This document shows positions 5,841-31,703 of a stretch of DNA of 37,595 nt, piece after piece. Where the stretch lies: NCBI GenBank assembly GCA_003135855.1, contig PNBD01000015.1, positions 14,823 to 52,417 of the forward strand, given 5' to 3'. The position numbers and the translations under genes were made by a program. The DNA is from Deltaproteobacteria bacterium. Lineage in GTDB: Bacteria > Desulfobacterota > Binatia > Binatales > Binataceae. Every line of letters starts with the position of its first letter. Positions within the stretch are counted from its first letter, which is position 1. The notes beneath the pieces are model-generated. The model was not told the DNA's origin, ran no database searches, and worked only from the letters and a program-made list of their open reading frames with translations.

Positions 5841-6572
5841 ATGATCCCGCTTCGCGATAATGCAGCGCCGCGCCGCTTCACCCCGGTCAATATCGTCCTG
5901 ATCGCGATCAACCTGGGCGTCTTCGTTTACGAAGTGTCGCTCGGGCCGCGCGCGGTCTCGTTCATCGCAAATTTCGCGATGGTCCCCGCCGACGTTGCTG
6001 GCGCACTCGCGACGCACGCGAGCGCGATTCACGATTCTCTCGCACCGCGCACCGCATTCGATTCGATCGAGCCGTTCGCCACGATCATCACTGCGATGTT
6101 CCTGCATGGAGGCCTCTGGCATCTGCTCGGCAACATGCTCTACTTGCTCGTCTTCGGCGCCGCCGTCGAGGATCGGATGCGCCCGATGCGCTATCTGCTC
6201 TTCTATCTCGCCTCCGGGATTGCAGCCGCGCTTGCGGAGGTCTGGATGGCGCCCGCATCTCAGGTGCCGATGCTCGGCGCGAGCGGAGCAATCGCTGGCG
6301 TCCTCGGTGCCTACTTCATTTTGTATCCGCGCGGCCGAATCTTGACGATCCTGCCAATCTTCTTTTTCATCCAGTTCATCGAAATTCCCGCCATCGTCTA
6401 TTTGCTGTTCTGGTTCGCGATTCAACTTTACTACGGCCTCATCGATAGCAACGCGGGCGCGATGATGGGCGGAGTGGCGTGGTGGGCTCATGTCGGCGGA
6501 TTTCTATTCGGCCTGGCGGTCGGCCCGATGCTGGCCGAGCGCCGTCCGCCCGCGCGTCGCGTGTACCGATGA
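5841..6572 (+). CDS. Rhomboid family intramembrane serine protease
   Basis: MFLHGGLWHLLGNMLYLLVFGAAVEDRM...MLGASGAIAGVLGAYFILYP...AWWAHVGGFLFGLAVGP (GxSG Ser and TM6 His). Confidence 0.93.
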   Translation: MIPLRDNAAPRRFTPVNIVLIAINLGVFVYEVSLGPRAVSFIANFAMVPADVAGALATHASAIHDSLAPRTAFDSIEPFATIITAMFLHGGLWHLLGNMLYLLVFGAAVEDRMRPMRYLLFYLASGIAAALAEVWMAPASQVPMLGASGAIAGVLGAYFILYPRGRILTILPIFFFIQFIEIPAIVYLLFWFAIQLYYGLIDSNAGAMMGGVAWWAHVGGFLFGLAVGPMLAERRPPARRVYR

Positions 6573-6705
6573 CTCAGCGTTCTGTGGATATGGTGACAAC
6601 CGTTGCCACTCGCTCGTGATAATTTGTTGTACGCGGTTGCTTCATCGTGAATAATTCCGCAATCGGAAATTCCAAGCGCGCGCGGTTTGCAGAGGTGGTG
6701 GTCAG

Positions 6706-8088
6706 GTGGCGGTTTCGTCGGACGATATACTAAAGCGCGTTCCCCCGCAGAATCTCGAAGCTGAACAGTCGGTTCTCGGCGCAATCCTGCTCGAGAACGA
6801 GGCGATCAATCAGTCGCTCGAAATTCTGACGGCCGACGATTTCTATCGCGAAAGTCATCGCGCAATTTTCCGCGCGATGATCGAGCTGACCGATCACAAT
6901 CAGCCGGTCGATGCGATCACGCTGACCGACGCGCTGCGCACCAAGGGCGCGCTCGAAAACATCGGCGGCCCGGGCTACATCGCGGAATTGGCGTCGATCG
7001 TGCCGACCGCCGCGAACGTCGCGCACTATGCGCGAATCGTGCGCGAGAAGGCCGTGCTGCGGAGTCTCGCTTCCATCGCGACCGACATCGCGAGCAATGC
7101 CTACGAGGCGCCCGGCGACGTGGACGGCTTCCTCGACGAAGCCGAGCATCGCATCTTCGAAATCTCCGAGCGGCGGATCAAGCCGTCGTTCCACACGATG
7201 CCCGAGCTGACGCGGGAGTCGCTCAAGATTCTCGAGCGGCTGTACGAAAACCGCGAGATGATCACGGGGGTGCCGAGCGGCTTCGTCGATCTCGATCGCA
7301 TCACCGCGGGCTTTCAGCCCTCCGACCTGGTGATCATCGCGGCGCGTCCCAGCATGGGCAAAACCGCGCTGGCGCTGAACATCGCGGCATACGCCGCGAT
7401 GGATGCCGACCCGCCGGTGGGCGTCGCGTTTTTTTCGCTCGAAATGTCGAAGGAACAGCTCGTGCTCCGCATGCTGTGCGCGGAGGCGCGCGTCGATAGC
7501 GCGCGGGCGCGGCAGGGATTTCTCGGCGAGCGCGATTTTCCCAAGCTCGCGCAAGCGGCGGCGCGGCTTTCGGAATCGAAAATATTTATCGACGATTCAT
7601 CGGACACCACCGCGATCACGCTCAAGGCAAAGTGCCGCCGGCTGAAGCGCGAGCAGGTCAGCAATCTCGGCTTGATCGTCGTCGACTATCTGCAACTGAT
7701 GCGGTCGGCGCGGCCCGGCGAGTCGCGTGAAAAAGAAATCGCGGAAATTTCGCGCTCGCTTAAAGCTCTCGCGAAGGAACTCAAAGTCCCGGTGATCGCG
7801 CTCTCGCAGCTCAACCGGCAAGTCGAATCGCGCGAGAATCGGCGCCCGATGCTGGCGGATCTGCGCGAATCCGGCGCGATCGAGCAGGACGCCGACGTGA
7901 TCGCGTTCATCTATCGCGAGGAAATGTACAAGGGCAAAGAAAGCAAGGAGCCAGGCGTCGCCGAAGTGATTGTCGCGAAGCAGAGAAACGGCCCGACCGA
8001 CACCGCGAAACTGACCTACATCAGCCAGTACACGCGCTTCGAAAACTACACGCCCGAGACCGGCGTGTTCGAGGATACCGGCGTCTAG
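6706..8088 (+). CDS. dnaB: Replicative DNA helicase DnaB
   Basis: VPPQNLEAEQSVLGAILLENEAI...DLVIIAARPSMGKTALALNIA...GLIVVDYLQLM...VIALSQLNRQVESRENRRPMLADLRESGAIEQDADVI; GTG start. Confidence 0.98.
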   Translation: MAVSSDDILKRVPPQNLEAEQSVLGAILLENEAINQSLEILTADDFYRESHRAIFRAMIELTDHNQPVDAITLTDALRTKGALENIGGPGYIAELASIVPTAANVAHYARIVREKAVLRSLASIATDIASNAYEAPGDVDGFLDEAEHRIFEISERRIKPSFHTMPELTRESLKILERLYENREMITGVPSGFVDLDRITAGFQPSDLVIIAARPSMGKTALALNIAAYAAMDADPPVGVAFFSLEMSKEQLVLRMLCAEARVDSARARQGFLGERDFPKLAQAAARLSESKIFIDDSSDTTAITLKAKCRRLKREQVSNLGLIVVDYLQLMRSARPGESREKEIAEISRSLKALAKELKVPVIALSQLNRQVESRENRRPMLADLRESGAIEQDADVIAFIYREEMYKGKESKEPGVAEVIVAKQRNGPTDTAKLTYISQYTRFENYTPETGVFEDTGV

Positions 8089-8124
8089 AACGAATCGAGT
8101 TCCCGTCACTTGCGCGAAACAAAG

Positions 8125-8823
8125 TCAGTTCGATGATTTGCTTTCGTCTGATGATGGCGAAGTTGAGGGATTGTTTGCTTCGGCAGGTTCGGCCGAATCA
8201 GCGGTTTGCTCGTGCGGCGCCGGTTCCACGCCTTCGCTCGCATCCTCGGGGTGAGTCTCGACGCTTTCGATCGGACCGACGTTCGCCTGTTCGACGGCGC
8301 GCTCGATTTCGCGGAACTCGGAGAGGTCAGGCAGGCCTTCGAGATCCTTCAAGCCAAACAACTCGAGGAATTCATCGGTGGTCGCGTACAGCATCGGGCG
8401 GCCGGGCGCTTCCTTGCGCCCTGCGATTTTGATTAGCCGTCGTTCGAGCAAGGTTTCGAGCACGCCGCCGGTATCGACGCCGCGCAACTGCTCGATTTCG
8501 GGGCGCGTGATTGGTTGCCGGTATGCGATTATCGCGACCGTCTCCATCAGCGGGCGGCTGAGTCGCGGCGGTCGCGCGGCCAGCAGCTTACGCACGTAGC
8601 TGGCGTGCTCTTTCGCCGTGCGCATCTGGTAGCCGCCGGCGACTTCCTCGATCACGATGCCGCGATTTTCGGTCGCGTAGCTGGCCGCCATCGCGGCCAG
8701 CGCTTTCTGCACCGTCGCGCGCGGCATGTCGTCGAATGCCGCAGCCAAGCGCGCGAGCGAGACCGGCTCGCCCGCCGCAAACAGCAGACTCTCAAGAATT
8801 GATTTCAGTCGCTCTTCTTCCAC
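8125..8823 (-). CDS. scpB: Segregation and condensation protein B
   Basis: VEEERLKSILESLLFAAGEPVSLARLAAAFDD...TVAIIAYRQPITRPEIEQLRGVDTGGVLETLLERRLIKIAGRKEAPGRPMLYATTDEFLELFGLKDLEGLP; GTG start overlapping scpA. Confidence 0.95.
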   Translation of the reverse strand: MEEERLKSILESLLFAAGEPVSLARLAAAFDDMPRATVQKALAAMAASYATENRGIVIEEVAGGYQMRTAKEHASYVRKLLAARPPRLSRPLMETVAIIAYRQPITRPEIEQLRGVDTGGVLETLLERRLIKIAGRKEAPGRPMLYATTDEFLELFGLKDLEGLPDLSEFREIERAVEQANVGPIESVETHPEDASEGVEPAPHEQTADSAEPAEANNPSTSPSSDESKSSN

Positions 8824-27839: not shown

Positions 27840-28315
27840 CGCCCGACAACGCGACGACCGCGAACTGCGGCATCTGCGCGATCATCGATCGCATCAAGGC
27901 CGGGAATTTCCACGACCACATCGCAGAGCTGCCCGGATGCTACGTCATCCTCGGCGATCGCCAATACTACCGCGGCTACTGCGTGCTGCTCTCGAAAATC
28001 CACGCGACCGAGTTGTACCTGATGACCGCCGAAGACGCGCGCGTCCTGTTCGACGAAGTCCGGCTCGTCGCCGAAGCGATCGCCGCCGTGGTCACGCCGT
28101 GGAAAATGAACTACGAATGCCTCGGCAACTCGGAGCCGCACGTCCACTGGCATCTGCTGCCGCGCTACGAAACCGATGAACTCCGCCGCGGCCCGATCTG
28201 GATGCGCGCCGAATCCGAGCAGAAGGTATCGCTCGAAGAAAACGATCGCCTCGCGCTGATCGCTTCGCTCCGCACCGAAATCGCAGCTCGCTGTTCGCGC
28301 GCGATTGTCAAATAG
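27836..28315 (+). CDS. HIT family protein
   Basis: CAICDR-like CGICAIIDRI; MNYECLGNSEPHVHWHLLPRY (HxHxH); overlaps preceding gene by 4 nt. Confidence 0.92.
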   Translation: MTPDNATTANCGICAIIDRIKAGNFHDHIAELPGCYVILGDRQYYRGYCVLLSKIHATELYLMTAEDARVLFDEVRLVAEAIAAVVTPWKMNYECLGNSEPHVHWHLLPRYETDELRRGPIWMRAESEQKVSLEENDRLALIASLRTEIAARCSRAIVK

Positions 28316-28352
28316 CAGCGCACTCTGCCGGGTGTCTGTGTGGACCGCTCCC

Positions 28353-28393
28353 GCATGCGATCCCGCACCACTGCCCGATGCGAAATCGCATGC
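28353..28393. repeat. Nested inverted repeats between convergent genes
   Basis: GCATGCGAT(28353-28361)...ATCGCATGC(28385-28393); nested ATGCGA-AA-TCGCAT. Confidence 0.7.
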
Positions 28394-28411
28394 CGGGTTG
28401 GTTCCGCCGTC

Positions 28412-29566
28412 TCAGTTCAACTCGATGTTGTAAAGCTTCGCGGCGTTCTCGAACACGATCTTGCGCTTGACGTCCGCCGGCACGCCCTCGAAATCCTGCT
28501 CGATCACCTTGAGCGAGTTAGGCCAGGTCGAGTCGGTATGCGGAAAATCCGACGCCCACATGAAGTTGTCCGCGCCGAAGTACGCATGCATCATCGGCCC
28601 GATCATGTCGTCCTGGAAAGTCGCCCAGACGTTTTGCCGAACGTATTCGGACGGCTTCAGCTTGAGCTTGGTGACTTCGTTCATCGTACCGAACTTGCCG
28701 TACATATGATCCATCCGATACATGAAGTGCGCGATCCAGCCGCTGTCGTTTTCCGCCGAGACGATCCGCAGTCCCGGGAAACGCTCGAACACTTTGCCGA
28801 AAATGAAACTCGAAAGCGTGCGCTGCACCTGGTAAACCGGTTGCATCGTCCCAAGCAGCATCTTCACGCCGCCTAAGGTCACGCCGCCGGAACCTTCCTT
28901 GTTCGCGCCCTCCTTGCTCTTGCCTTTCTGATCCCGCTGCGTGATTACGTGCAGCGAAAGCGGCGTCTTCGTCTCCTGTGCGAGTGTCCAGAATGGATCG
29001 TACACTTCACTGAAATAGGGCTTGTCCTCGGGCGGCACGCCCCAGATCATCGCGCCCTTCAGCCCCATCTTCGCGCATCGTTCGAGTTCCTTGACCGCCA
29101 GCGGAATGTCGTCCAGCGAGATGAGCGCGACCGGATGAAGCCGACTGGGGCAGTGCGATCGGAATTCCGCGACCCAGTCGTTGTACACGCCGAAGCATGC
29201 GCGCCGCAGTTCGTCGTCGTCCAACCCGAACAGCGGCATGCCGAGAGTCGTGTAGATAACCTCCGCCTCGACGCCGTCGATGTCCTGATCCTTGAGGCGC
29301 TCGACCGGATCCCATCCGCTGGGCCGCGCCGCCTCGTAGCCCTTCTTCAGATGTTCCTTGAGTTCTTCGCCACTCTTGCCGATACCGAAGCCGCCCGCGA
29401 CCGGAAAGGGTCGCACGCCAGGAGCGATAAACAGGTAACCCGCACCCCGCTCGTTCTTGACTACCTTCGGCGCTCTATCCCTGAATTGATTATCCAGACG
29501 CTCGGTCCAGAGATCAGCGGGTTCCATCATATGCGAGTCGGCGGAGATAACGCGCAAACCAGCCAT
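28412..29566 (-). CDS. Amidohydrolase family protein (Amidohydro_2)
   Basis: VISADSHMMEPADLWTERL...RLHPVALISLDDIPLAVKELERCAKMGLKGAMIWG...IVSAENDSGWIAHFMYRMDHMYGKFG...FMWASDFPHTDSTWPNS. Confidence 0.93.
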   Translation of the reverse strand: MAGLRVISADSHMMEPADLWTERLDNQFRDRAPKVVKNERGAGYLFIAPGVRPFPVAGGFGIGKSGEELKEHLKKGYEAARPSGWDPVERLKDQDIDGVEAEVIYTTLGMPLFGLDDDELRRACFGVYNDWVAEFRSHCPSRLHPVALISLDDIPLAVKELERCAKMGLKGAMIWGVPPEDKPYFSEVYDPFWTLAQETKTPLSLHVITQRDQKGKSKEGANKEGSGGVTLGGVKMLLGTMQPVYQVQRTLSSFIFGKVFERFPGLRIVSAENDSGWIAHFMYRMDHMYGKFGTMNEVTKLKLKPSEYVRQNVWATFQDDMIGPMMHAYFGADNFMWASDFPHTDSTWPNSLKVIEQDFEGVPADVKRKIVFENAAKLYNIELN

Positions 29567-29764
29567 CAGAGTTCCTCCTGATGTTTAGTAAAGGCTTGTC
29601 TAATATTTGTATCGCACCCGCAGGCACTGCCGGGCAAGGTCGGTAGCACCGGTCGAAGTTGCGACAATCGCCGGGCATCCGTAATCTCAAGCGCGAACGT
29701 TGGTCGCGCGATCGAGGCATCGACGCGACCGTTGCTGCGATTGAGGTTTCCAGACGGGTTAGAA

Positions 29765-30388
29765 ATGCCGAGTATCGCGACGTGGATTCGAAAATGCGAC
29801 GAACACTGGTTCACGCTCATCTTCAGCCGCTATCCAGATTTGACGGTACATAACGCTCGATCGCATCCGGTCGAGCTGGGCCAAATGGATGCGTTGCTGC
29901 TGAGCGGCGGCGGCGACATCTCGCCCGGCTTTCTCCGCCAGGCGATCGCCGAGCCTTCGTTGATTGTCGATACTGACTGCGAGCGCGACGAGTGGGAGTT
30001 CAAGGCGGTCGGCGAGATGCTTCTGTCGGGCAAGCCGATCCTCGCGATCTGTCGCGGACTGCAAGTGCTCAATGTCGCGATGGGCGGGACCTTGCATATC
30101 GACATTCCCGACCATGACAATGCGGAAACCGCAAACATCCAGCCGCTCAGGCATAGCTCGAAGGCGGTTCACCGATTCGGGGCGGTGAACAGCTCGCATC
30201 ACCAGGCGCTTGAACGGTTAGCCGACGGGATTGAGGTCGAGGCCTGGTCCGCGAGCGACGGAATAGTCGAGCAGGCACGATTGCGCTCGCACGCCTTCGC
30301 CGTCGGGGTGCAATATCATCCCGAGCGGCATCCGCTCTATCTTCCATTGTTCGCCGATTTTTTCGATCGAGTTCGCAACACCGGATAG
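29765..30388 (+). CDS. Class-I glutamine amidotransferase / gamma-glutamyl-gamma-aminobutyrate hydrolase-like (peptidase C26)
   Basis: MDALLLSGGGDISPGF...KPILAICRGLQVLNVAMGGTLHIDIPDH...VNSSHHQALERLADGIEV...AVGVQYHPERHPLY. Confidence 0.92.
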   Translation: MPSIATWIRKCDEHWFTLIFSRYPDLTVHNARSHPVELGQMDALLLSGGGDISPGFLRQAIAEPSLIVDTDCERDEWEFKAVGEMLLSGKPILAICRGLQVLNVAMGGTLHIDIPDHDNAETANIQPLRHSSKAVHRFGAVNSSHHQALERLADGIEVEAWSASDGIVEQARLRSHAFAVGVQYHPERHPLYLPLFADFFDRVRNTG

Positions 30389-30417
30389 CGGTTCGCGTCG
30401 CGTTTTGCAGGTGCGGG

Positions 30418-31176
30418 ATGCTCACGGTTCGGGTCGGTTGCAATATTCATTTTGAATGCGAATCGTCGGCCACGGCTATCCTGTTGGTTAATCCACGTTT
30501 TGATAGCGACCATCCGATACGACACGAAAATCTCGACTTCGGCCGCGCTTTGAAGTCCGAACCTTTCGCCGACGCGGACGGCAACATCGCTTACCGCGTG
30601 ATTCTGGAAACTGGTCTAAATGAGATTCGGCACGATGCGCTGGTAGAAGTGTCGGCAGACTCAGACAAGAGCGACCAATTCGGCGACGCTCCGTCCGTCG
30701 CCACGCTCGAGCCGGCTTTTTTGCGCTATCTTCTACCCAGCCGCTATTGCGATTCAGACCGGCTGTTTGCATTCGCCCAGGAGAAGTTTGGAAGTATTTT
30801 CGACGCGGGCGAGCGCGTGCAGGCCATCTCGGATTGGGTTCATAACAACATCGAATATCGCTTCGGTTCCGGAAGGCCGGACATTTCAGCCGCGCAAGTT
30901 GTCGATCGAGGCTACGGCGTGTGCCGCGATTTTGCTCATTGCACCATTGCGCTCTGCCGGGCGCTCAACCTGCCGGCGCGATACGTCACCGGTCATCTGC
31001 CGGACATCGGACACATCGATCCCGGATTGCCGATGGATTTTCACGCATACAGCGAAGTGTATCTCGGCGGCAAATGGCATGTCTTCGATGCGCGCTACAA
31101 CGAACCTAGAATTTCTCGATATTCGGAGATCGCTGCCGGCGGCGTGACATCGAGGCTGAACGCGACGCGCTTTTGA
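30418..31176 (+). CDS. Transglutaminase-like family protein with aberrant C-terminus
   Basis: ISDWVHNNIEYRFGSGRPDISAAQVVDRGYGVCRDFAHCTIALCRALNLPARYVTGHLPDIGHIDPGLPMDFHAYSEVYLGGKWHVFDARYNEPRI (Cys-His-Asp triad); tail after PRI does not look like family sequence. Confidence 0.9.
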   Translation: MLTVRVGCNIHFECESSATAILLVNPRFDSDHPIRHENLDFGRALKSEPFADADGNIAYRVILETGLNEIRHDALVEVSADSDKSDQFGDAPSVATLEPAFLRYLLPSRYCDSDRLFAFAQEKFGSIFDAGERVQAISDWVHNNIEYRFGSGRPDISAAQVVDRGYGVCRDFAHCTIALCRALNLPARYVTGHLPDIGHIDPGLPMDFHAYSEVYLGGKWHVFDARYNEPRISRYSEIAAGGVTSRLNATRF

Positions 31177-31280
31177 TCTGGCGCGTCAATCGGAGCGAGC
31201 CGCACGTCATTGTGCGAATGAGAGGCCGGCTTTTCGTAAACGTATCGAGTTACGTGTTTAATGCGGAATCGCATACGCAC
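31095..31280 (-). pseudogene. N-terminal remnant of a second transglutaminase (Bact_transglu_N-like), antisense to the preceding gene's 3' end
   Basis: MRMRFRIKHVTRYVYEKPASHSHNDVRLAPIDAPDQKRVAFSLDVTPPAAISEYR then off-family EILGSL*; no transglutaminase core follows. Confidence 0.7.
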
Positions 31281-31339
31281 CTGGGCTCTAGCCCCAATGC
31301 CCTGAGAAGATTATCCAAATGGGTCAGACAAAAAAAGGA

Positions 31340-31375
31340 CACTCCCCGAATGAGGTGCACTTCCCGAATGAGGTG
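31340..31375 (+). repeat. 18-bp tandem duplication over a start codon
   Basis: CACTCCCCGAATGAGGTG CACTTCCCGAATGAGGTG (1 mismatch). Confidence 0.9.
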
Positions 31376-31703
31376 GACGATCGATCAGACCGTAACTTCC
31401 CGCGCGCGATTCTCCAGCCGGAGCGCTTTCGCGACCTTAACGCTGATCTTGGCATTGTCGATCTTGTCCGCATGCCATCCCAAAGGGCTGCCCGACAGTG
31501 CGAGCCCGGCCGCGCAAACTTACGTCGCGCGATGCGGCCAATGTCATGCGCCCTACAATCCCAACGAACTCACCGCCGCGATGTGGGACACGCAAGTCAC
31601 CATGATGGAAGTGAAAATCCAGAACGCCGGTTTGCCTCCGCTCTCCGCCGACGATCGCGAAACGATCCTCGACTACCTCAAGCACAACGCCGGCAGCCAA
31701 TAG
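31350..31703 (+). CDS. Small c-type cytochrome, probable lipoprotein
   Basis: LTLILALSILSACHPKG lipobox; TYVARCGQCHAPYNPNELTAAMWDTQVTMM (CxxCH); start 31350 or 31368. Confidence 0.8.
   Translation: MRCTSRMRWTIDQTVTSRARFSSRSAFATLTLILALSILSACHPKGLPDSASPAAQTYVARCGQCHAPYNPNELTAAMWDTQVTMMEVKIQNAGLPPLSADDRETILDYLKHNAGSQ

Follow-up and report, generated by a model that had tools for sequence, protein, structure and literature searches.

A single deletion of about 1.57 kb across a convergent pair of transglutaminase genes is the most probable origin (with a probability of roughly 0.85) of a junction in the 37,595-nucleotide stretch of a Binataceae genome analyzed here, which we call the window. The deletion would have left the plus-strand gene, TG1, without its conserved 3' end and reduced the minus-strand gene, TG2, to a dead stub. 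Both truncations, the position of the junction, an intact convergent pair of these genes in a relative, and an assembly that lacks the missing DNA were directly observed. The event is an ordinary deletion with gene decay.

Two truncated transglutaminase genes

The plus-strand open reading frame at positions 30418-31176 encodes 252 amino acids, compared to 292 for TG1 in the relative that carries the intact array (L064), and its product matches the Pfam family Transglut_core (PF01841; 80.1 bits versus a curated cut-off of 23; E = 1.8e-22). The 5' part of TG1, approximately 234 codons at 30418-31118 on the plus strand, contains this match and has 81% DNA identity to L064/G043, ending at approximately 31106-31118. 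The TG1 proteins of the window and L064 are 87% identical. As the initial annotation had stated, the catalytic residues of the truncated enzyme are intact: the Cys (GVCRDFAH), His (DFHAYSE), and Asp (FDAR) motifs are kept, and C169, H209, and D224, which are invariant across the TG1 homologue alignment (A1), are all present. No frameshift was found upstream of the junction and no internal stop was found, and the nucleotide differences from L064 lie mainly at third codon positions (93 of 134). This bias and the unbroken frame indicate either a recent deletion or continuing selection on the truncated protein; most of the selection signal is older than the deletion, and the two are inseparable. 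The relatives of TG1 recovered in a genome scan (L064-L107) were mostly Verrucomicrobiota metagenome-assembled genomes (MAGs), with about 44 to 65% identity, and the only close relative within its own family was G043 (87%). Judged from this distribution, TG1 may have been acquired by horizontal transfer.

The minus-strand open reading frame at 31095-31280 encodes 61 amino acids and has a GTG start; the ATG used by its homologues is at 31274. Its product matches Bact_transglu_N (PF08379) far above chance, with 52.7 bits versus a cut-off of 27 and an E value of 7.3e-14. This match is partial and covers profile positions 1 to 56 of 80, in keeping with the start of a transglutaminase that the initial annotation had read in the fragment. 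The TG2 stub proper, at 31119-31274 on the minus strand, consists of the first ~52 codons of a gene with Bact_transglu_N and core transglutaminase domains and has 82% DNA identity to G002, a member of the same genus. The remainder of the translated frame, at 31095-31118 on the minus strand, is an accidental short tail ending in TAG that lies antisense to TG1. The frame thus ends at 31095 without the catalytic core, and a search for the TG2 core throughout the genome assembly did not find it; the stub is the sole PF08379 match in the 4.5-Mb assembly. The TG2 gene of G002 is 82% identical over 31119-31277 and continues beyond the breakpoint to the end of its contig. TG2 in the window is a dead stub.

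Position of the junction

The junction at which the TG1 register passes into the TG2 register was placed at 31118/31119, give or take a few bases, by ungapped comparison with L064 and G002. On the TG1 side, identity to L064 was 7 to 9 of 9 positions up to 31104, 4 to 5 of 9 over 31105-31122, and then 0 to 3 of 9 in three blocks; on the TG2 side, identity to G002 was 8 of 9 from 31119 and 1 to 3 of 9 below. TG1 identity therefore stops and TG2 identity starts with no gap between them. This position falls within the 31105-31125 interval that the initial annotation had proposed for the join, and its description of a C-truncated plus-strand transglutaminase abutting an antisense N-terminal fragment is borne out by the two open reading frames and their PF01841 and PF08379 matches. 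No long repeat common to the two ends of the deletion was found, which points to illegitimate recombination with little or no microhomology as a natural cause. When the assembly was searched for the lost ~1.58 kb and for the remainder of TG2, only short unrelated or FecR-motif matches were returned.

An intact array in a relative and the proposed deletion

The genome scan identified L064 (MAG BP6.bin67; its sequence is identical to G043:C32), in which the undeleted arrangement can be seen. Its array consists of a peptidase C26 gene (5348-5971, plus strand), TG1 (6001-6879, plus; 292 amino acids), a FecR-domain gene (6982-7455, plus), and TG2 (7553-8431, minus; 292 amino acids, with both PF08379 and PF01841), and TG1 and TG2 are intact and convergent. 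Synteny between the window and L064 is unbroken from 29718 to approximately 31106. The first gene of the array in the window, at 29732-30388 on the plus strand, is a peptidase C26/class I glutamine amidotransferase-like gene (PF07722; E = 2.5e-36) syntenic with L064 5348-5971; its homologue in L064 starts at the equivalent of approximately 29765 in the window. The TG2 stub has 6 nonsynonymous codons among 51 relative to G002 and 14 relative to L064, and since the stub is nearer to G002, L064 is an imperfect proxy for the ancestor.

We infer that the ancestral locus held the C26 peptidase gene, TG1, and the FecR-domain gene facing TG2, and that what was deleted matched L064 in content. A single deletion corresponding to approximately 6702-8275 in L064, with both endpoints within transglutaminase genes, would have cost TG1 its final 58 codons and TG2 about 240 of its 292 and eliminated the FecR gene entirely, presumably as a real chromosomal event. 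The TG1 frame now continues antisense to the start of TG2 and reaches a stop after 18 unrelated codons.

Loss of the TG1 C terminus

The new end of TG1 (31119-31176, plus strand) comprises 18 out-of-family residues beyond the last alignable Arg plus a stop codon, all encoded antisense to the beginning of TG2, the origin that had been proposed for it. Homology is lost after PRI(x)R, in line with the earlier observation that the product departs from its family after PRI, and DNA identity to L064 is at chance after approximately 31118. Relatives sharing this plus-strand tail were looked for, and it had no counterpart in any of 44 aligned TG1 homologues, which are mostly from Verrucomicrobiota MAGs. 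All 44 instead carry a conserved segment of approximately 58 residues after PRI that is missing from the window TG1 alone; it includes near-invariant positions, and its motif IGRxKxAHGxDAV...FxVWAYQVxP...DLSKRLDG is present in 44 of 44.

Structure models of the two proteins are of moderate confidence (mean pLDDT, 76 to 77). In the AlphaFold2 model of full-length L064 TG1, predicted strands at residues 235-239, 250-252, and 255-266 all lie in the segment that the window TG1 lost. The window model keeps the remaining fold, with a pLDDT below 50 for residues 232 to 252, and the new tail is thus predicted to be disordered. Because the lost end is conserved in all homologues aligned and belongs to the predicted fold, and because the tail is predicted to be disordered, truncated TG1 is probably a decaying gene despite its Cys-His-Asp motifs, and proper folding and function of its product are unlikely. 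The remaining catalytic motifs make residual activity possible, with loss of function more likely.

Alternative explanations

The initial annotation had proposed that two transglutaminase genes were joined tail to tail by inversion or deletion. The tail-to-tail join agrees with the undeleted convergent pair in L064, and of the two routes, deletion held up and inversion did not. Inversion of one gene would account for the opposite orientations of the remnants; TG1 and TG2 are, however, already convergent in L064, so that deletion alone suffices, and a second endpoint carrying the missing parts was not found in the assembly, which makes inversion exceedingly improbable. We also consider it unlikely that both genes are really intact in the genome and that the junction is an assembly artifact produced by chimeric joining or by the collapse of strain variants. 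The sequence does come from a draft metagenome assembly (157 contigs, 90% complete, 3.8% contamination), and the junction was found in no other genome among 148 searched in the class and so has no independent confirmation. A k-mer join in an assembly, however, normally requires a long shared repeat, and the ends here have none in common; the junction also lies within a 356-kb contig with syntenic flanks, the missing middle does not turn up anywhere in the assembly, and the remnants are ordered and oriented as a simple deletion of an L064-type array would leave them.

A real deletion could also have left truncated TG1 functional, with a C terminus newly created by overprinting, as had been suggested before. 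The intact Cys, His, and Asp motifs, the lack of an internal stop, and the third-position-biased divergence would fit such an enzyme, but we regard it as quite improbable given that the lost segment is near-invariant in the 44 homologues and contains three predicted strands, that its replacement is predicted to be disordered, and that most of the selection signal arose before the deletion. That TG1 is expressed and active, with the lost strands replaced by the 18-residue tail overprinted on the TG2 antisense, is very doubtful; if true, a new protein end would have been born from the deletion. Deletion with decay of both genes remains our preferred reading. Mediation of the event by an insertion sequence was considered and rejected: the stretch at 31270-31440 is single copy in this genome, the repeat motif that it contains is absent from 40 family relatives, and no transposase was recognized among the proteins scanned at the junction.

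The site in related genomes

The segment at 28304-31381, which contains an amidohydrolase gene, the C26 gene, TG1, and the TG2 remnants, is an insertion relative to four members of the genus (G001, G002, G005, and G006). In these genomes the cytochrome gene lies within a few dozen to ~160 bases of the block that ends at approximately 28303, and this gene aligns with the window from approximately 31381 onward. At this site in the four relatives (L112, L113, L115, and L111) the flanking genes nearly touch, and the position has the look of a variable insertion spot. The DNA that separates the TG2 stub from the cytochrome gene in the window includes a tandem 18-bp repeat, CACTYCCCGAATGAGGTG, at 31340-31375; searches for its motif in the rest of this genome and in the 40 family relatives yielded no match. 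The matching site in G003, also a member of the genus, carries a different insert of 4.3 kb with a hybrid histidine kinase and another open reading frame (L109 8570-12860, G003:C122). Beside the cytochrome gene, G003 also has ~200 bp resembling the DNA upstream of the window C26 gene (29612-29830; score of 93 versus a shuffle maximum of 59). This one short alignment suggests that G003 may once have carried the array and then lost it, and a leader-like piece as all that is kept at the site would fit decay of the array within the genus.

Comparison with known systems

The significance of the locus goes little past annotation: an annotation would present the plus-strand gene as a complete transglutaminase despite the loss of its conserved end and would overlook or miscall the TG2 stub. 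It provides a clean example of a deletion between convergent neighbors that gives rise to an antisense-overprinted C terminus, with the intact arrangement in a relative for comparison. One published study (PMC3887535) describes gene overlap arising through stop codon loss for same-strand pairs; the literature found on gene overlap and overprinting consisted of general papers, with nothing on the TG1/TG2 locus.

The window TG1 aligns over residues 8 to 230 (E = 6.5e-35), with the Cys, His, and Asp motifs, to the transglutaminase-like putative cysteine protease of Cytophaga hutchinsonii (3ISR), which is also the best solved match of the full-length L064 TG1 model (274 columns; TM score, 0.77). 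It differs from this family in missing the C-terminal ~58 residues. The TG2 stub resembles proteins that combine Bact_transglu_N and Transglut_core, as intact L064 TG2 does, in its match to the first 56 of the 80 PF08379 positions, but at only ~52 codons it has no catalytic core. The locus as a whole is like pseudogene formation by deletion between convergent neighbors with an antisense-overlapping end, in that two facing genes have lost their 3' ends and one frame enters the antisense of the other. Unlike in that known pattern, both genes are truncated here and, by chance, both belong to the same superfamily.
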